The translations under genes were made by a program, and so were the position numbers. A stretch of DNA of 35,069 nt from Methanomassiliicoccales archaeon (GTDB lineage: Archaea > Thermoplasmatota > Thermoplasmata > Methanomassiliicoccales > UBA472): NCBI GenBank assembly GCA_016926075.1, contig JAFGPG010000068.1, forward strand, positions 1 to 35,069. The letters run 5' to 3'. Of this stretch, positions 4,977 to 35,069 are shown piece by piece (the first letter of the stretch is position 1; each line of letters opens with the position of its first letter). The notes below the pieces were generated by a model. It was not told the origin of the DNA, did not search any database, and was given only the letters and a program-made list of their open reading frames with translations.

Positions 4977-6008
4977 ATGGGGTCACGCTTCGAGGGACTG
5001 GACGAGTCAGAGGTAGAGCTGCACGAGCTCAACATCCTGGTGGTCGGTTGCGGGGGCGGGGGGTGCAACAGCATACACCGCCTCAACCACATCGGCATAG
5101 AGGCAGCCACGACCATGGCCGTCAACACTGATCAGAAGTCCCTGAAGGCCACCGACTGTCCCAACCGCCTGCTGCTCGGGGCGGAATACACCAAGGGCCT
5201 AGGCACCGGAGGGCGTCCGGACGTCGGTGAGGAGTGCGCACTGAACGCATCGCCCATGCTCTCCAGGATCTTCCAGGGTGTTGATCTGACGTTCATAATC
5301 ACCGGATTGGGCGGGGGCACGGGCACCGGCGCCTCCCCGGTGATGGCGGACATCGCCCGCCGCTGCGGCTCCATGGTCATCTCCATCGCCACCACGCCCT
5401 TCAGCTTCGAGGGCAACCACCGTCGGAACGTCGCCCTCAAGGGGCTGAAACGATTGCGCGAGTCCTCCAACAGCCTGCTTGTCCTGGACAACGACCGCCT
5501 GTTGCACATGGTGGACAATCTTCCGGTCGATCAGGGGCTGGCCATCATAGACCAGCTCATCTCCGAACTCATCAAGGGCACGGTGGACGCCCTCACTACG
5601 CCCTCCCTCATCAACCTGGACTTCGCCGACCTACGGACCATCATGGAACAGGGCGGTGTCTCCACCATCCTCTACGGGGAGAACGCCGATCCCGAGGCGG
5701 TGGTCCGCGATGCCCTGGAGAACCCCCTGCTGGACGTGGACATCCATGGGGGCACCGGCGCCCTCATCCACATCACAGGAGGGAGCAACCTGACCATGCG
5801 CCGGGCCAATCGCATCGTGGCCAGCATCACCAAGGTTCTGGACGACGAGGCCACCGTCAAGTTCGGGGTAAGGGTGGAGGAGGAGATGGAGGGCAGCATA
5901 CGCATGATCGCCGTGGTCACCGGCATCTCCGAAGTGCACGGCCCCCTGGCCCCAACTGTCATACCCGGGGACGACCTGGGTCGGATCCTGGGCAAGTACG
6001 GTCCCTGA
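4977..6008 (+). CDS. ftsZ: Cell division GTPase FtsZ (third, divergent paralog; FtsZ2-like by context)
   Basis: 343 aa with VGCGGGGCNS, GLGGGTGTGASP and NLDFADLRTIM motifs. Confidence 0.95.
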   Translation: MGSRFEGLDESEVELHELNILVVGCGGGGCNSIHRLNHIGIEAATTMAVNTDQKSLKATDCPNRLLLGAEYTKGLGTGGRPDVGEECALNASPMLSRIFQGVDLTFIITGLGGGTGTGASPVMADIARRCGSMVISIATTPFSFEGNHRRNVALKGLKRLRESSNSLLVLDNDRLLHMVDNLPVDQGLAIIDQLISELIKGTVDALTTPSLINLDFADLRTIMEQGGVSTILYGENADPEAVVRDALENPLLDVDIHGGTGALIHITGGSNLTMRRANRIVASITKVLDDEATVKFGVRVEEEMEGSIRMIAVVTGISEVHGPLAPTVIPGDDLGRILGKYGP

Positions 6009-16560: not shown

Positions 16561-21132
<4,572 letters not shown>

Positions 21133-23480: not shown

Positions 23481-26400
23481 ATGGCAACGAAAAAGGAGGG
23501 GGTCAGTCGCCCTACCGATAGGCAGCGTTCCAGTTCGTTGTCCGATCTCTCCCGGGCCCTGAAGGGCTCTTGGATAGGAAGGAATTGGCGGACAGCACTG
23601 CTGTTGGTGATGCTGGTGTTCCTGGCCTTGTTCGTCAGGAGCTATTTCGGATTCTCCACGTCCGTGGACAACGGTTACCTGGTGTCGGGAGGCTCCGACT
23701 CATATTATCACATGAGGGTCATCGACCACGCGGTGGGGACCGGGGAGCACCTGGTATGGGACGACATGCTGAACTATCCGCTGGGGATGAGGAACCCCCG
23801 CCCTCCGCTGTATGACTGGTCAGTGGCGGTGTTCGCCATGTTCCTCAGCAGCATCTCCGGGCTGGTCATCACGGATGCTGTGGGACTGTCCTTGGTGTTC
23901 TCCACCGCTGTGTGGGGAGCGCTCACCGTCATCCCGGTCTACATGCTGGGAAAGGCGGCCTTCGGACGCAAGGCCGGACTGCTGGGGGCGTTCATATTCG
24001 CCCTCATGGCCGGCCACATCGAACGCACCGTGCTGTCCAACGCGGACCATGACGCCATGGTGCTCTTCTTCGTGGTGTTCTCCTTCTACTTCCTGCTGCG
24101 CTCCCTGCAATCGGTCCAGGGCAGCCGATGGGTGGCCAGATGGGGGGATCCCAAGGCCATAGGGTCCGGGCTCAAAGGGTATCTGGGAACGAACCATGTC
24201 TCCCTTATTTACGCCGCCCTGGGGGGCATCTCCGTGGCCGCCGTGGCCATGATCTGGACCGGCTACACCTACCTTCTCATCATCATCTTGGTCTATCTCA
24301 TCGTGCAGCTCTTCGTGGACCGCTTCCGCAACGCGGACTCCATGGGGGTCCTATTCACCATCATCACCCTCTTCGGGGTGGCCTTCCTGGTGATGGCCCC
24401 CATGTACGTGAGCCTGAGCCTGGTGAACACCTGGTTCGACACACCCCTCTTCCTCTTCATCGTGGCCACCCTCGGAGGGCTGCTGTTCGTGGTCACGCGC
24501 GACTACCCCTGGACCCTGGTCCTGCCCACGCTCGCCATCATTACGCTGGGCGCCCTGGCAGCGCTTTCTGTGCTCTCTCCGGGCCTGTTCGAGTCCATAG
24601 TCACCGGTCAGGGATACCTGGTCAAGAGCAAGCTATACAGCACCATATCCGAGGCCCAGGCCCCAGGCTTCTCCAGCCTGGCCATGTCCTTCGGCATGGT
24701 GACGTTCTGGCTCTCCCTGATGGGGGTGGGATGGGCCGCCTACAAGATCCCCAAGAACATCAGCCCCTACTTCATCTTCGTAGTGGTCTGGGTGGGCATA
24801 TCCATATACATGGCATCCTCCGCCGCCAGGTTCGTCTTCAACGCCGCCCCGGCCTTCGCGGTGTCCGCGGGATGGATACTGGCCATCATCATCGATACCC
24901 TGAGGTTCGATGAGATGCTGCACAGCATGCGCACCGACCATGGCGGGCTGCTCAAGACCCTCCGCCACTCCGTCAAGATAAGGCACGTGCTGGGGATCGT
25001 CTTCGTGGTCCTCATGATAATGGTGCCCAACGTCTGGTATGCCATGGACGCCGGGATCCCATCCACCTCCAAGGCCGATTTCGATGGCCAGATATACATG
25101 GTCATGCCCGAGTTCCTGAGGCCGGACGACTACGACCTGCAGAACGGCACCCTCTGGTACCTGGGCGCCTTCGCCTATGGCATGTCCCTGCCCAACACCT
25201 ACTGGCCAGCGGCCTGGGAATGGTTCTCCCAGCAGGATAGTGATGCTCTCACCCCCACCGACCGCCCGGCCTTCCTGTCCTGGTGGGACTACGGGTTCGA
25301 GGCCATACAGCAGGGCGGACACCCCGCGGTGGCCGACAACTTCCAGAACGGATATCAGTTCGCCGGCACCTTCCTCATGACCCAGACCGAGGAGGGGGCC
25401 ATCGCCATGCTCATCGTCCGCTGCATGGAGGCCAGGGCCGACTACGACTCCGAGGCCCTCTACTCGCTCATGGGCTCGTACGGAGTGGACAGCGTGCGCC
25501 TGAAGGACATCATGACCCACCCCACCGATTACGTTGAGGAGGTCAGGGACAACCCCGATGTCTACGGGGAGTACGACGATGAGCTGAGTTCCGGCAACGC
25601 CAAATACGCCGCGGCCCGCGAGGTGCTGTCCCGAATAGGCAAGGGCGAGCTGACATCCCTCTACCACGAGGTCAGGGAGATCACGGGTCAGGACATCGGG
25701 TATGTGGCCATAGACAACCGCCTGTTCCCCTTCACCGCCACCAGCTACAACATCTTCTACGCACCGGCCAAGCTGTCCGATCAGAGGGTGGACGGCAACA
25801 ACATCCCCTACGACTACTACCAGATATACGCCGTGGACTACTACGGGGAACAGATACCGCTGGACGAGGTCACCTCCTCCGATTTCATCGTGGACTACGA
25901 GATCGTCTACACCGAGGCCTTCTACGACACCATGCTCTACCGCACCTTCATGGGGTACGGGCCGAGCGATGTGGGCGAGACCGAACAAGGTCTTCCAGGC
26001 ATCTCCGGCAGCCTGCAGTCCCTGCCCTCCATGCAGGGCTGGAACATGAGCAACTTCCGGATGGTGTACCGCACCGCCTACTACAACCCCTATCCTAGCT
26101 CCGAGGTCTCCAACCACTCCGACGCCTGGAGGGCCATCTCCTACCAGGAGGGCATCGAACTCTATGGCAAGATCAACTCCGGGGAGGTCATCGGGACCGT
26201 GGACCTCTCCTCCTCCGGCCTGTACTCGGGGGTGGTGTTCCTGCAGTACTACGATGGGGCCATCATCGAGGGCACCGCCCTCTCCGACAGCGGGGATCCC
26301 ATGGCCAACATCTGGGTCACGGTCCTGGACGATTACGGTATCCCTCACCAGGTGGTGAGGACCGACGCTGACGGGCGCTACAGCATTTTAGCCCCCTTCG

Positions 26401-29400
26401 GTGAGACCACCGTGGTCTTCTCCTACGGCGACCTGGACGAAAGATTGCTGTACGGCACCGAGCTGTACTCCACCACACTGGACATCACCTACGACCAGGC
26501 CATGCGGGTGGAGGAGGACGCGAACAAGGACGGCCAGATGGACTACATGGTCGATCTGGACGTGACCATCACCGCCGGGACCCTCGAGGGCATGGTGTAC
26601 GTGGACAACGATGGCAATGGCAAATACTCCGCCTCGAACGACGAGGTGCTGGTGGGAGCCACGGTCATCTTCGAGAACCAGACCTCCGGTCACCATCTGG
26701 AGGCGGTCTCCACCGAGGACGGATATCAGCTGACGGGCGTGCCGCCCATCTCCGGCGACCTATCCGTGCGGTACGATGGGCACATCTTCGGGGAGGCCCA
26801 GGTCACCGCCGTGGTGGACAGCACGGTCACCACGGACCTGGGATACGAACCGGCCAAGGTCGAGGGGAACGTCACCCTGGAGGACGGTTCCCCCGCCAAC
26901 GGTGTCTCCGTCATCCTTCTGGACCAAAGCAGCGGGGAGATGCTCGAGGAGGTCACCGATGCCTCGGGCGCCTTCGTCTTCAGCGACCTGCTCCCCGGTG
27001 ACTACACACTTCAGACCCCGGACGGCACGGTGCTGCTCGATCCCCAGGTGCGACTGGAGGAGGGCGACTCCCTGGTCCGGGACCTGGTGCTCTATCATTC
27101 CATGCGCATCACCGGCCTGGTCAGTTACGACGGGGAACCGATCACCAACGCCATGGTGGGGGTGAACGGTGAGCTGGGCACGAAGTGGGTGCGCAGCGAC
27201 ACCCGCGGACGCTACACTGTGGTGGTGCCCAAGGGCCAGGTCTCACTGTACGCCACGGCCACCGTAGAAGGGGAGGAGGTGGTTCAGCTCCACATGGTCC
27301 AGGCCACGGACGATGCCACCATCGACCTCCTACTGGAGCCGGGGATGGTGCTGAACGGGTTGGTAAGCTCGGGAACGAGCATCAGCAATGGTGCCACGGT
27401 CACCATCGAGTCCCGAACCAGTGAGGCGGTGCTGACCGCGGTCAGCAACGGGAGCGGCGGGTTCCGCGCAGTGCTACCGGAGGGGTTGTACTCCATCTAC
27501 GCCCAGGACGGTTCCCGCTCCTATTGGAACGACATATACCTGGGCTCCACGGTCTCCGTCGGCATCGACCTGCTGGACTCGGTCAAGGTAAGCGGTACCG
27601 CCTGGTATGATCAGGACGGTGATGGGGCCATCTCCAGCGGAGAGAGGCTGAGCGGTGTGCAGGTCTCCATCCGGGACCAGGAGGGGCGGGCATTGTCCTC
27701 GAGCACCGGTCCCGACGGTGCTTACTCCTTCCTGCTGATCGCCGGAAGGAGCTACACCCTTCAGGCCGTGAAGTACGGTTACGAGGGGCTGAGCGAAACG
27801 CTCGGCTCAATGGTCACGGACACGACCCTCGACCTGAACATGCAGGCCACCGAAAGGCTGGTCAGCGGCAGCATATCCTCGGGCATGGGCGGCATCACCA
27901 TCCAGTTCACCGCCCGGAGCGGTTCCGCGATGGACGCGGTCGCCGTCACGGCCATTGACGGCAGCTTCTCGGTGACGCTTTCCCCAGGAGATTACCTGGT
28001 CCATGTGAACCAGAACGTCACGCCGGGGGACGCCTCGGTACAGTATCAGTCCTCCGCTCCAATGGAGCTCACGGTGGACATCGGAAGTGACGTGACCGGC
28101 CTGGAGCTGGAGATGGTCCAGAGGGTCCTGGTCACGGGGACCATCAGCCCCAGTGGTAGCGCTATCATGGTCTTCGATGGGCCGGAGCACGAGGAGATCT
28201 CCGCTGGCAGTATCTATTCCGTCTATCTGCAGAAGGGCAACTACTCCCTGTATGTGAGGGTGGACAATTCCTCCCTGCGCTCGGCCGACCTCTCCCGGGT
28301 GCTCATCAGCGGCCCGACCGTCCTGGACGTGGCGGCGGACACCGCCCGTCAGGTGATGGTACGGGCCAGCATGACCGGGGTCGGTGAATCGGGTGTCATA
28401 ATATCAATCCGGGAGGGAGATGCGTGCTACAACCTGACCTCCTCCTCCTCGATGAACTTCATCTCTGTATACCTGGCCCCCGGAAGCTACTCCGCCTCCA
28501 TAGAGCACCATGACACGGCCGTCATCGACGGTGTGAACAGGTATGTGGTCTACAGAGGGGAGATCAGCTTCGAGATGGGGTCCATGGCACAGAACGTGCT
28601 CATACCCACCACCAGGGAGCTGGACAACGCCACGGTGCAGGGATGGGTGCTGGCCTCCGGGGCGCCTGTACCAGCCACCCTCAGGTTCATGCCCCAGTCC
28701 GAGACGGCCATGGAATGCACCGTGGAGGCGGCCTCGGGCAACTACTCGGTATCCCTCGCCCCCGGCAACTACAGCGTGTACGCGCTCAGCGCGGACAGCG
28801 GCCAGGCCTTCCTAGGGGAGCTGAGCGTCGATGGACCTGTGGACCTCCAAAACGACCTGGTGCTGAGCGCCGCCCTACGCCTCACGGGCGTCACCTTCGC
28901 CGGTGACTTCGGGGTACAGGCGCAGGTCACGGTCGCGGGCGAGGGGGCACTGGACCTCATCAGCGGGGCTGACGGCCGCTACGAGATCTACCTGCCGGCC
29001 GGCACCTATCTGCTGCAGGCAGAGACACAGCTCACGGAGGCTGGCCTGTCCGTGACATACAGCGGGGAGAACGGCGTGGAGCTGCAGGACGTTACCTCTC
29101 GCGGGATATTCATGGAAAAGGAAGTGGTGCGCTCGGTGGACATCACATGGGACTCCGCTCAGAAGGCGACCATAGGCGCCGGTGAGACAGCGGTCTACAC
29201 CATACGGGTGTCCAATACGGGGAACGCCCCCGACACCCTCAGGCTGAGCGCCACCGCCACCGGGTGGACCGTGACCTTCTCGCAGACCGAGGTGGCCCTG
29301 GACTTCGGCAGCGGTGTCAGCAGCCAGATCGTGACCGTGCATCTCACGCCCTCGGAATCCGTACTGGTCAGTCACACCGCGGTCACCGTGAGGGTCTCCT

Positions 29401-29972
29401 CCACCGGCAACTCCTCGATCACCGACACCGTGAAGCTGGACGCCGACATATCCCCCTTCTACGAGCTCTCCTTGACCTATGTGAGCGCCCAGGGGACGGA
29501 CGGTAGCGACTATCAGTACCGTGTGAAGGTGAAGAACCAAGGCAACGTCGAGGACACCTGCACGGTGACGGTGGGGAACGGACCCGTCTTGAACGACCTC
29601 GGCTGGGAGGTCAAGCTGGTGGACGGGACGCTCCTGAGCGATTCCCTGAACCTCACGGTAACCGCCTCCGGCAGCATGGATTTCATCGTCTCCCTGACCC
29701 CGCTGCGACAGAACCCCAGCCCCACGGTCACCGTTCAACTGGTGGCGGTATCCCAGAACGATGAGGCGGCCATGGCCACCCTGGACCTGACACCCGAGTT
29801 CGCAGGCCTCATGATCAGCGGCGGTGTGGCGGTCAGCGGTCCAGGGGTGTCCTATAGCGCTCCGGCCATGGGCATGGACACCGTGGTCCTGCTGGGGGCG
29901 GCACTGGCCCTGATGGTGGTGGTGCTCGTCCTCTCCGTACAGAAGGGGGTGTTCTCACGAAGAAGGCGCTGA
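23481..29972 (+). CDS. aglB: Oligosaccharyltransferase AglB/STT3 fused to a C-terminal array of carboxypeptidase-regulatory-like/SdrB-like beta-sandwich and NEW3-like domains
   Basis: 2163 aa from ATG 23481. Multi-TM N-terminus, NADHDAMV, catalytic WWDYG at 25281-25295; from about 26260 about 11 repeats of the G.V...G.P...V.V......V.T...G.Y....PG.Y.L type, then GNAPDTLRLSATATGWTVTF (NEW3-like) and C-terminal TM VVLLGAALALMVVVLVLSV-QKGVFSRRRR. Confidence 0.93.
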   Translation: MATKKEGVSRPTDRQRSSSLSDLSRALKGSWIGRNWRTALLLVMLVFLALFVRSYFGFSTSVDNGYLVSGGSDSYYHMRVIDHAVGTGEHLVWDDMLNYPLGMRNPRPPLYDWSVAVFAMFLSSISGLVITDAVGLSLVFSTAVWGALTVIPVYMLGKAAFGRKAGLLGAFIFALMAGHIERTVLSNADHDAMVLFFVVFSFYFLLRSLQSVQGSRWVARWGDPKAIGSGLKGYLGTNHVSLIYAALGGISVAAVAMIWTGYTYLLIIILVYLIVQLFVDRFRNADSMGVLFTIITLFGVAFLVMAPMYVSLSLVNTWFDTPLFLFIVATLGGLLFVVTRDYPWTLVLPTLAIITLGALAALSVLSPGLFESIVTGQGYLVKSKLYSTISEAQAPGFSSLAMSFGMVTFWLSLMGVGWAAYKIPKNISPYFIFVVVWVGISIYMASSAARFVFNAAPAFAVSAGWILAIIIDTLRFDEMLHSMRTDHGGLLKTLRHSVKIRHVLGIVFVVLMIMVPNVWYAMDAGIPSTSKADFDGQIYMVMPEFLRPDDYDLQNGTLWYLGAFAYGMSLPNTYWPAAWEWFSQQDSDALTPTDRPAFLSWWDYGFEAIQQGGHPAVADNFQNGYQFAGTFLMTQTEEGAIAMLIVRCMEARADYDSEALYSLMGSYGVDSVRLKDIMTHPTDYVEEVRDNPDVYGEYDDELSSGNAKYAAAREVLSRIGKGELTSLYHEVREITGQDIGYVAIDNRLFPFTATSYNIFYAPAKLSDQRVDGNNIPYDYYQIYAVDYYGEQIPLDEVTSSDFIVDYEIVYTEAFYDTMLYRTFMGYGPSDVGETEQGLPGISGSLQSLPSMQGWNMSNFRMVYRTAYYNPYPSSEVSNHSDAWRAISYQEGIELYGKINSGEVIGTVDLSSSGLYSGVVFLQYYDGAIIEGTALSDSGDPMANIWVTVLDDYGIPHQVVRTDADGRYSILAPFGETTVVFSYGDLDERLLYGTELYSTTLDITYDQAMRVEEDANKDGQMDYMVDLDVTITAGTLEGMVYVDNDGNGKYSASNDEVLVGATVIFENQTSGHHLEAVSTEDGYQLTGVPPISGDLSVRYDGHIFGEAQVTAVVDSTVTTDLGYEPAKVEGNVTLEDGSPANGVSVILLDQSSGEMLEEVTDASGAFVFSDLLPGDYTLQTPDGTVLLDPQVRLEEGDSLVRDLVLYHSMRITGLVSYDGEPITNAMVGVNGELGTKWVRSDTRGRYTVVVPKGQVSLYATATVEGEEVVQLHMVQATDDATIDLLLEPGMVLNGLVSSGTSISNGATVTIESRTSEAVLTAVSNGSGGFRAVLPEGLYSIYAQDGSRSYWNDIYLGSTVSVGIDLLDSVKVSGTAWYDQDGDGAISSGERLSGVQVSIRDQEGRALSSSTGPDGAYSFLLIAGRSYTLQAVKYGYEGLSETLGSMVTDTTLDLNMQATERLVSGSISSGMGGITIQFTARSGSAMDAVAVTAIDGSFSVTLSPGDYLVHVNQNVTPGDASVQYQSSAPMELTVDIGSDVTGLELEMVQRVLVTGTISPSGSAIMVFDGPEHEEISAGSIYSVYLQKGNYSLYVRVDNSSLRSADLSRVLISGPTVLDVAADTARQVMVRASMTGVGESGVIISIREGDACYNLTSSSSMNFISVYLAPGSYSASIEHHDTAVIDGVNRYVVYRGEISFEMGSMAQNVLIPTTRELDNATVQGWVLASGAPVPATLRFMPQSETAMECTVEAASGNYSVSLAPGNYSVYALSADSGQAFLGELSVDGPVDLQNDLVLSAALRLTGVTFAGDFGVQAQVTVAGEGALDLISGADGRYEIYLPAGTYLLQAETQLTEAGLSVTYSGENGVELQDVTSRGIFMEKEVVRSVDITWDSAQKATIGAGETAVYTIRVSNTGNAPDTLRLSATATGWTVTFSQTEVALDFGSGVSSQIVTVHLTPSESVLVSHTAVTVRVSSTGNSSITDTVKLDADISPFYELSLTYVSAQGTDGSDYQYRVKVKNQGNVEDTCTVTVGNGPVLNDLGWEVKLVDGTLLSDSLNLTVTASGSMDFIVSLTPLRQNPSPTVTVQLVAVSQNDEAAMATLDLTPEFAGLMISGGVAVSGPGVSYSAPAMGMDTVVLLGAALALMVVVLVLSVQKGVFSRRRR

Positions 29973-30748
29973 TGTGGGCATTGCTCGTCTGTCTATTGCT
30001 GTCCGCCCTTCCGGCCACCGCCGCGGGGGACGGTTACGATCCTCTGCATGCACAGCTGGAAGGCCCCCTGGTGGTCACCACGGGCAGCGTGACCCAGTAC
30101 AAGTTGAGCATGGTGGGGGGACCGGCGGAGGCCGGGGTGGGCAACTATTCGTACAACGCGGATTTCGCCGGTACCGGCAGCACCTACGGCTCGTACTTCG
30201 TCCCGGGCAGCGCGGAGCCCACCTCCAGCGGGGTGTTCTACATCAACCTGACCGCGCCGTCCGAAGCGCAGACCCTCACCATCTGGATCAACTGCACCTC
30301 CACCGGCTCCACGGAGAGCATGGCCCTCCCGCTGGTGTACAAGGTGGAGGTGGTGGAGCCCATCGTGTTCCATGCCACCATCGTCAACACCGGCGACGTG
30401 GCGGTGAGCGGTGTCCCCCTGGCCCTGTACATATTGAAGGAAGGGCAGTGGTCGGAGGTGCACAGCACCTCATTGGACCTGGCGGCCGGGCAGTCCTATG
30501 ACTTCCTTTACAATTGGACGGCCTTGGACCTGGAATCGGGCCAATACAAGGTGCGCATGCTCCTGGACCCCAGCAACGCCATCGTGACCTTCGAGGGCGG
30601 CGCGACGGTCTACGAGACGACCATCTACTATGACGTCCCCGGTTACGGAGGGGTCAACACCCTGCTCTGGGTGCTGGTCATCGCCCTGGGGCTGGTGGCG
30701 TTCCTCCTCTGGAGGCGCCCCAAGGCCAAGGGCAGGAAGAGGCGCTGA
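29972..30748 (+). CDS. CARDB-like exported membrane-anchored protein
   Basis: Signal peptide MWALLVCLLLSALPATAAG, beta-rich CARDB-like region VFHATIVNTGDVAVSGVPLALYILKEGQW, C-terminal TM LLWVLVIALGLVAFLLW-RRPKAKGRKRR; start overlaps the aglB stop (TGATG). Confidence 0.8.
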   Translation: MWALLVCLLLSALPATAAGDGYDPLHAQLEGPLVVTTGSVTQYKLSMVGGPAEAGVGNYSYNADFAGTGSTYGSYFVPGSAEPTSSGVFYINLTAPSEAQTLTIWINCTSTGSTESMALPLVYKVEVVEPIVFHATIVNTGDVAVSGVPLALYILKEGQWSEVHSTSLDLAAGQSYDFLYNWTALDLESGQYKVRMLLDPSNAIVTFEGGATVYETTIYYDVPGYGGVNTLLWVLVIALGLVAFLLWRRPKAKGRKRR

Positions 30749-33483: not shown

Positions 33484-33675
33484 GTTTAACGCCGATACTT
33501 CGTATAGAGGTCAATATAGGGTATGGACAAGAAGCATTGGTGACAATTTATCGAATAACTATTAAGTAATGCCACACAAATACATTCGTTCAATCAAACC
33601 AGGGTCCCTTATGGTGGATGGGGTCCGTATGGGGGAATGCAATTGGACAATCCAAGTACTAATCAGAATGATATT

Positions 33676-35069
33676 ATGAACACTGGCTTTGTCAAGAGGG
33701 CAGCCTTGTACCTCGGTATATTGGCCTTTGCTCTGGTTCTGCTCATGTTTTTGGGCGCAGGACAGGCCAGTGCGGAGGATGTCTCGGGTGATATCACCGT
33801 TGATACCACCTGGACGTCCGACAACACGTATAACGTGACCGGAGATGTGTATGTAAATACAGGTGTCACGCTGACGATCGAGAACAACGTCACCGTGATC
33901 TTCGAGAACGACTATAGTATAATAGTAGAAGGAGAACTGTTGGTGCAAGGGACCGCTGACAGCCCAGTGACCTTCACCTGGAACGAATCCACGATGAACT
34001 ATGGATGGATCGCGATGGCGTTCTTGGACGGCTCCTCGGGCTCAGTTGCATACGCCGACATCTCCCATGTGTTCGCAGGCATCTATTTGCAGAACGAGAG
34101 CATCCCGATCTCCAATGTGAACTTCAATGATACATATTATGGGATCATTGGAGAGTTCAACAGCTGGGGAGCGACGGTATCCCTGTCCTTCAACGACCTC
34201 TCTTTCTATGGGATAGGGGACGTTGTCATTGGGCTCTGGAACGACAACGGTAGCCTGGACGTCACCCTGGATAGTATATATGTCGACGCTTCATACATTT
34301 TCCTGGAACTTGGGGCATATACGCCAACGTTGACCGGCACCGTTGACCTGACTATGAGCGATGTTCATGTCAACGATACTTATTATGGCCTGGATATAGA
34401 GGCGGACGTTATCGGTAGCATCGATATCGCCGATACCGAGCTCACCAACATGTGGATGTCCGAATACGCGATCTGGCTGGAGAACGACCCCGGTGATATG
34501 GTGGTAGTGCTCTCCAATGCATACTTCGAGAACTGCTACGGTATCCTATACGCCAACAACCTGAACGGCAGTCTGGACGTGACGTTTGACAACGTGACCA
34601 CCGACAACACCTACCTGATAGCGGACCTCAGCGCCACGGCCTTCGGCGGGAACGGGAACGTGGACTTGACCATCACCGACTGCAGTTTCAACGATTCGGA
34701 TTATGGTATCTACGTGCAGGCGGACATGATCGGTAACATTCAGGTGTCCGACACCGAGTTCACCAACTTTTGGGGATGGGACTACCTGCTGTACCTCTAT
34801 GCAATCCAAGGTGACATCGTGATAGGTCTGGACAACGTGACCATGGACAGCATCGTACATGGATTGTTAGCCTACACCAACGGCAGCATCATGGCGACCT
34901 TCAACGAGTTCCACGTCAGCAATGGCGACTATTCATCAGACCTCTATGCGTCCTCTTCCGAGGGCACTGGGGTCCTGACCCTGACCGTCACCAACTCCAG
35001 CTTCTCCAACATGGGCGACTGTCTGTACACTTATTCATATGGAATAGGAGCCATTGAGATAGTCGACAC
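33676..35069 (+). CDS. Exported right-handed beta-helix-type surface protein (incomplete, runs off window)
   Basis: My translation from ATG 33676 is open to the window end: MNTGFVKRAALYLGILAFALVLLMFLGAGQASAEDVSGDITVDTTWTSDNTYNVTGDVYVNTGVTLTIENNVTVIFENDYSIIVEGELLVQGTADSPVTFTW... Signal peptide and periodic right-handed beta-helix-like strands. Not in the supplied ORF track. Confidence 0.85.
   Translation, partial: MNTGFVKRAALYLGILAFALVLLMFLGAGQASAEDVSGDITVDTTWTSDNTYNVTGDVYVNTGVTLTIENNVTVIFENDYSIIVEGELLVQGTADSPVTFTWNESTMNYGWIAMAFLDGSSGSVAYADISHVFAGIYLQNESIPISNVNFNDTYYGIIGEFNSWGATVSLSFNDLSFYGIGDVVIGLWNDNGSLDVTLDSIYVDASYIFLELGAYTPTLTGTVDLTMSDVHVNDTYYGLDIEADVIGSIDIADTELTNMWMSEYAIWLENDPGDMVVVLSNAYFENCYGILYANNLNGSLDVTFDNVTTDNTYLIADLSATAFGGNGNVDLTITDCSFNDSDYGIYVQADMIGNIQVSDTEFTNFWGWDYLLYLYAIQGDIVIGLDNVTMDSIVHGLLAYTNGSIMATFNEFHVSNGDYSSDLYASSSEGTGVLTLTVTNSSFSNMGDCLYTYSYGIGAIEIVD

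Follow-up and report, generated by a model that had tools for sequence, protein, structure and literature searches.

The window analysed here, 35,069 nucleotides of contig JAFGPG010000068.1 from the Methanomassiliicoccales archaeon assembly GCA_016926075.1, carries a giant aglB gene in which the STT3/AglB core of an oligosaccharyltransferase (OST) is continued by a long beta-sandwich tail, followed directly by a small gene, P0002, which likely encodes its partner. The main result is that in a related family of the same class, f2, the giant protein has, as judged from sequence, a selected function without glycosyl transfer. We give a probability of roughly 60% to the reading that giant AglB and P0002 form a two-subunit complex of OST and scaffold at the cytoplasmic membrane, with a scaffold function independent of glycosyl transfer, because this sister clade kept the tail, the core fold and the partner after its catalytic motifs were lost.

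A preliminary description of this DNA had proposed a giant OST with a C-terminal anchor, in which one open frame joins an STT3 core with WWDYG to about 11 repeats and NEW3-like domains. The frame is indeed uninterrupted, and the repeat count is correct when the conserved first domain is included, giving 10–11 prealbumin-like (CarboxypepD_reg) domains between the ectodomain and the NEW3-like domains. The features of the gene are as follows; tail domain borders, taken from the list of strands, are approximate.

23481..29972, + strand: giant aglB, 2,163 aa, a complete frame from an ATG at 23481 that is retained in relatives to a TGA at 29970–29972
23481..25064, + strand: STT3/AglB transmembrane core, residues 1–528 (PF02516 2.7e-20, Pfam cut-off passed; alignment to Archaeoglobus fulgidus AglB 3waj, E 2.7e-14; hydropathy)
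23697..23699, + strand: catalytic D73 of the first DxD, present in 52/53 class sequences and gone from most of family f2
24045..24053, + strand: second DxD motif, D189-H-D191, the two residues present in 48/53 and 49/53 and gone from all inactive f2 sequences
24642..24653, + strand: TIxE motif, residues 388–391, with E391 in 52/53 and gone from nearly all inactive f2 sequences
25281..25295, + strand: WWDYG sequon-binding motif, residues 601–605, in 52–53 of 53 and degraded in inactive f2
25065..26258, + strand: AglB ectodomain, residues 529–926, whose profile matches the solved AglB C-terminal domains 3vu0/3vgp (E ~1e-10)
26259..26492, + strand: first prealbumin-like domain, residues ~927–1004 (PF13620 match at 26265–26429), with core-level conservation
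26577..29105, + strand: tail of ~10 further prealbumin-like (CarboxypepD_reg / SdrD_B) domains, residues 1033–1875 (Pfam; AlphaFold2; best PDB profile match NOMO2)
26604..26642, + strand: putative Ca-binding loop DNDGNGKYSASND, residues 1042–1054 (class-wide consensus DxDGNG...D; SdrD_B family)
27609..27644, + strand: second DxDGDG loop, residues 1377–1388, less conserved than the first
29136..29810, + strand: two NEW3-like immunoglobulin (Ig) domains, residues ~1886–2110 (NF041740 6.5e-13; NPCBM_assoc in relatives; AlphaFold2 model)
29874..29942, + strand: C-terminal transmembrane helix, residues 2132–2154 (model helix; hydropathy; a transmembrane segment and basic end in the listed full-length relatives)
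29958..29969, + strand: RRRR end (order consensus KGVFxRRKR)

Pfam also finds nine CarboxypepD_reg stretches (3.2e-44) and SdrD_B (1.1e-17) in the protein. NEW3 (PF10633) gives no match to the window AglB itself, although relatives are matched at the corresponding position (L094, 8.2e-6), which makes the term NEW3-like fair. Both DxDGxG loops described earlier are present, with class-wide conservation for the first alone. The NCBIfam model TIGR04154 (archaeo_STT3, the archaeosortase-associated AglB; 831 positions) aligns to residues 40–978 (E 5.7e-71; 240 bits, under its 450-bit cut-off) and ends where the tail begins. No PGF motif, as in a PGF-CTERM type signal for archaeosortase processing, is found at the AglB C-terminus, which has the transmembrane helix and RRRR instead, and inspection of residues 660–681 gave no unambiguous DK/MI motif of the kinked helix. 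A. fulgidus AglB-L (PDB 3waj, 5gmy; 868 aa) shares the transmembrane core, DxD, TIxE, WWDYG and a homologous ectodomain, but has no long tail, no C-terminal transmembrane helix and no described partner subunit. The length is unusual, as was claimed, since described AglBs with long forms have 754–1,054 aa (PMC5131992, PMC3703281). With D73, D189/D191, E391 and WWDYG all complete, the window AglB is predicted to be active in sequon glycosylation.

The AlphaFold check that had been suggested for the tail confirmed beta-sandwiches strung in a chain that ends in a helix (residues 964–2163, 48 relatives; mean predicted local distance difference test score, pLDDT, 88). Its predicted template modelling score of 0.48 means that the individual domains are confident and their mutual arrangement is not. 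A linker separates the NEW3-like domains from the membrane helix. The giant OST with a C-terminal anchor that had been proposed is supported, and its tail would be anchored in the membrane at both ends.

Family f2 was sampled as 63 genomes with completeness of at least 85%, and is probably Methanomethylophilaceae, a lineage that includes gut methanogens, because L080, named Methanomethylophilaceae, groups with its genus g22. The giant protein is kept in 62 of the 63 genomes, and the catalytic motifs are lost in 59 of these 62 species, in every genus except g22: D73 is changed to S, G or A in most, ADHDA to NGTEYA and similar, TIxE and R450 are lost, and WWDYG has become, for example, WFGYS (the fragments L238 and L240 stop short of this position). 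A few sequences keep single residues (D73 in genera g23 and g24, WLDYG or WLDFG in g24), consistent with gradual decay after one loss, and the inactive sequences group together in a single clade (support 0.998) next to the active soda-lake members. The frame is open over ~1,830–2,030 aa in most, the ratio of nonsynonymous to synonymous substitution rates (dN/dS) is 0.12–0.61 in pairs with at least 60% identity and lower for the core than for the tail in nearly all of them, indicating purifying selection, and the partner gene is found in all 51 of the 51 loci that hold the 3' end. A PF02516 search found no second STT3 in the f2 genomes. By sequence, the inactive proteins are putative pseudo-OSTs, and the open frame, the dN/dS constraint, the kept partner, the lost motifs and the lack of a second STT3 together argue for a selected function without glycosyl transfer. 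An apparent absence of STT3 from many f2 genomes by Pfam turned out to be sequence divergence, the gene being retained.

Two g24 proteins, G273 (2,360 aa) and G196 (2,555 aa), form the earliest branch of the inactive clade; with a longer tail and with D73 and WLDYG/WLDFG kept, they stand midway in the decay. PF00953 (GT4, MraY/Alg7-type) was uninformative as a glycan-pathway marker, being absent at E<=0.001 from all 28 Methanomassiliicoccales genomes, active and inactive alike (12/14 control genomes have one); the first lipid-linked glycan step must use something else.

The same giant architecture occurs throughout the order Methanomassiliicoccales and the class Thermoplasmata, with one STT3 gene in nearly every genome tested, frames mostly of ~2,050–2,440 aa, and a match to the family profile in all 17 genomes with no or weak Pfam STT3. 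A single-protein search of the genome contigs gave nothing, and it was an alignment search that recovered the relatives; those with names place the window's genome in Methanomassiliicoccales (class Thermoplasmata), nearest to UBA472. The search for orthologues proposed earlier thus yielded 52 other full-length loci, and since these come from independent genomes, an assembly error or gene join as the source of the giant frame is excluded. Measured from residue 961 onwards, the tail is 1,202 +/- 35 aa long (range 1,131–1,332) across 53 sequences despite 21–59% tail identity to the window protein, unlike copy-variable stalks, and a membrane helix followed by basic residues closes the listed full-length relatives. 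Other lineages of the phylum have forms of ~3,200 aa (families f42 and f48, which probably belong to Poseidoniia) and of 2,340–2,740 aa, as well as shorter ones of 1,170–1,430 aa that carry a few additional domains and lack the terminal helix. Such a series suggests that the giant form grew step by step out of the C-terminal beta domain of ordinary AglB. The STT3 frames of L136–L139 (G432, G409, G380, G422; probably Poseidoniia) reach ~3,150–3,300 aa, with a domain set that is partly different by profile. L128 and L131 have ANYLT or ANYLA at the second DxD (residues aligned to 187–192) and keep the other OST motifs, possibly a variant active site.

These lengths bear on the earlier suggestion that the tail places the OST in the S-layer, or more broadly that it is a tether or spacer fixing the enzyme to, or carrying it through, an S-layer or second membrane. 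The beta-sandwich chain and Ca-type loops do resemble SdrD-like surface proteins, and a probable outer membrane has been reported for M. luminyensis, a member of Methanomassiliicoccales (PMC4243693). However, tail length is near-constant across the class, and full-length forms of ~2,060–2,130 aa occur in family f19. The Cuniculiplasma record L129 comes from a genome of that family too, and Cuniculiplasma isolates have AglB yet are S-layer-deficient (PMC5155288). Family f2 likewise keeps the tail, and Methanomethylophilus alvi, probably one of its members, is bounded by a single membrane and lacks both wall and S-layer (PMC10673518). The C-terminus of AglB is, moreover, a membrane helix. Attachment of the tail to an S-layer is unlikely, and so is a tether in the broader sense.

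The tail was also described as rich in sequons, and hence as possibly self-glycosylated, or as presenting acceptors. It holds 12 sequons, one of which (N1716) is conserved in 20/21 order members, but 7.3 are expected by shuffling (p=0.045), most positions are not conserved, and the catalytically dead family retains the tail. The claimed richness is therefore weak, and with a count so close to chance a sequon array was rejected as the role of the tail; we regard it as highly improbable. A further explanation is that the tail serves the OST only as a substrate-binding extension that captures acceptors. It is fused to the enzyme and lies beside the active site, the first tail domain is as conserved as the core (0.67–0.68, vs ~0.5 further along the tail), and sister lineages have proteins of 1,170–1,430 aa with shorter extensions of a few domains. 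Against this, purifying selection has preserved tail, fold and partner in f2 although the catalytic motifs are gone, which makes capture as the sole role rather unlikely.

Retention of the tail in the dead family strengthens instead the scaffold that was proposed at the outset, of which P0002 would be the second part. Its start shares one base with the aglB stop (TGATG), and it encodes a predicted type-I membrane protein:

29972..30748, + strand: P0002, 258 aa, with signal peptide, Ig-like domain, CARDB domain, transmembrane helix and basic tail
30047..30334, + strand: first Ig-like domain, residues 26–121 (model pLDDT 91.6; weak choice_anch_V similarity)
30347..30601, + strand: CARDB domain, residues 126–210 (PF07705 in 48/49 family members)
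30644..30712, + strand: transmembrane helix, residues 225–247 (model; hydropathy)

The partner is next door in 57/61 class loci whose aglB frame ends inside the locus, and in 57/57 of those where the frame is intact and enough downstream DNA is present. Of the four others, L074 and L078 have frames broken close to a contig end, the frame of L129 is shortened and followed by 272 bases, and L124, discussed below, shows no recognisable partner. Its profile was trained iteratively on the same loci, the first round being a single-sequence search at E<1e-5. Most overlaps between the two genes are -1 or -4, the partner is also present in family f19, another Thermoplasmata family, and the other neighbours (rpoA'', radical SAM, purD) occur in fewer loci. 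In sister lineages a CARDB domain and transmembrane helix are fused at the AglB C-terminus (L140, L141, L146 and L138 over the Pfam cut-off), the P0002 profile matches the L146 AglB at 1e-17, and no separate partner was found downstream in L140, L141 and L146; the window AglB C-terminus has no CARDB. P0002 is likely a subunit or close partner of giant AglB, as suggested by the adjacency (strong) and by the CARDB fusion in sister lineages (supportive only).

Ribophorins, OST48 and TRAP alpha/beta share a type-I layout of signal peptide, Ig-like domains, transmembrane helix and basic tail. P0002 has the same layout as these eukaryotic OST accessory and translocon subunits, but no significant sequence or fold match to them (one TRAP_beta match at 0.0097); its fold and sequence searches returned generic Ig and CARDB matches and no known OST subunit.

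The tail itself resembles another translocon component. With the class-wide tail profile, human NOMO2 is the best match in the PDB (E 3.2e-40), the next unrelated structure following at 1.5e-9. NOMO consists of 12 prealbumin-like domains and one C-terminal helix, and belongs to the BOS complex of the endoplasmic reticulum (ER) translocon (PMC11186639, PMC11169918), where the positions of OST and of the NOMO-containing complex clash sterically (PMC7505659). One explanation would make the tail a genuine archaeal orthologue of the eukaryotic protein, joined physically to STT3: NOMO2 leads by 30 orders of magnitude, length and the single C-terminal helix are similar, and some members match NOMO and EMC7 Pfam domains over cut-off. 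NOMO1/2, however, is a separate subunit with no STT3, the domain order is not collinear, both proteins are repeats of a widespread family, and CarboxypepD_reg proteins are abundant in these genomes. Orthology is accordingly very unlikely, and the match, scored with the class-wide tail profile alone, shows a similar building plan. Many other large CarboxypepD_reg proteins are encoded in these genomes (G006:C59, 1,579 aa; G003:C31, 2,713 aa; G006:C50, 2,015 aa; others).

For the complex of OST and scaffold, the following mechanism may be proposed. The cell's only OST would be encoded by the giant gene, with a normal AglB core carrying out ordinary sequon glycosylation, as the motifs suggest. The fixed-length beta-sandwich chain would return to the cytoplasmic membrane by its C-terminal helix, a topology suggested by the helices and basic end, and giant AglB would work together with the single-pass Ig/CARDB protein P0002. 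Tail and P0002 would form a membrane-attached extracytoplasmic scaffold, NOMO-like in layout, that may hold or organise, near the enzyme, proteins bound for secretion or the membrane and perhaps also the Sec machinery. Several points weigh against this reading. Complex formation, topology and scaffold function are all inferred; residues ~1053–1268 match three separate NOMO regions, so that the match is not collinear; and Foldseek with the whole tail gave generic multi-Ig matches only, at low TM-scores, with NOMO not singled out. CARDB and CarboxypepD_reg are common domains, and arguments from fusion and similarity are suggestive only. The mirror-tree signal of partner and tail beyond that of the core is weak (partial r 0.28), and in L124 neither a recognisable separate partner in the 726 downstream bases nor a Pfam CARDB at the end of AglB is seen. 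The best remaining reading is a role at the cytoplasmic membrane near secretion or membrane-protein assembly, its exact task being conjectural.

Three further features of the window may be recorded. The rpoA'' frame (19358–20854) has ~110 residues before the part matched by TIGR02389; two FtsZ genes lie close together on opposite strands (776–1897, - strand; 4977–6008, + strand); and an open frame of at least 477 aa (33637–35067, + strand) leaves the window, with no Pfam family and a local guanine-cytosine content of 0.53 vs ~0.63.

Our literature search found no paper on the giant form, its partner or the inactive family. The archaeal OST has been described as a single-subunit enzyme, and a class-wide second gene together with a fixed-length scaffold would change this picture. 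Giant AglB and its partner would offer a simple model of the way in which accessory parts are added to OSTs. More tentatively, the Thermoplasmata OST may be a two-subunit complex with a NOMO-like scaffold for the biogenesis of membrane and secretory proteins, of which the Methanomethylophilaceae lineage has kept a pseudo-OST only as scaffold; this is possible, at somewhat less than even odds. The catalytically dead relatives, gut methanogens among them, would be a natural experiment in which scaffold function could be examined with AglB glycosylation absent. Much of Methanomethylophilaceae is predicted to be without N-glycosylation of the AglB type, in keeping with the report that M. alvi has no S-layer.

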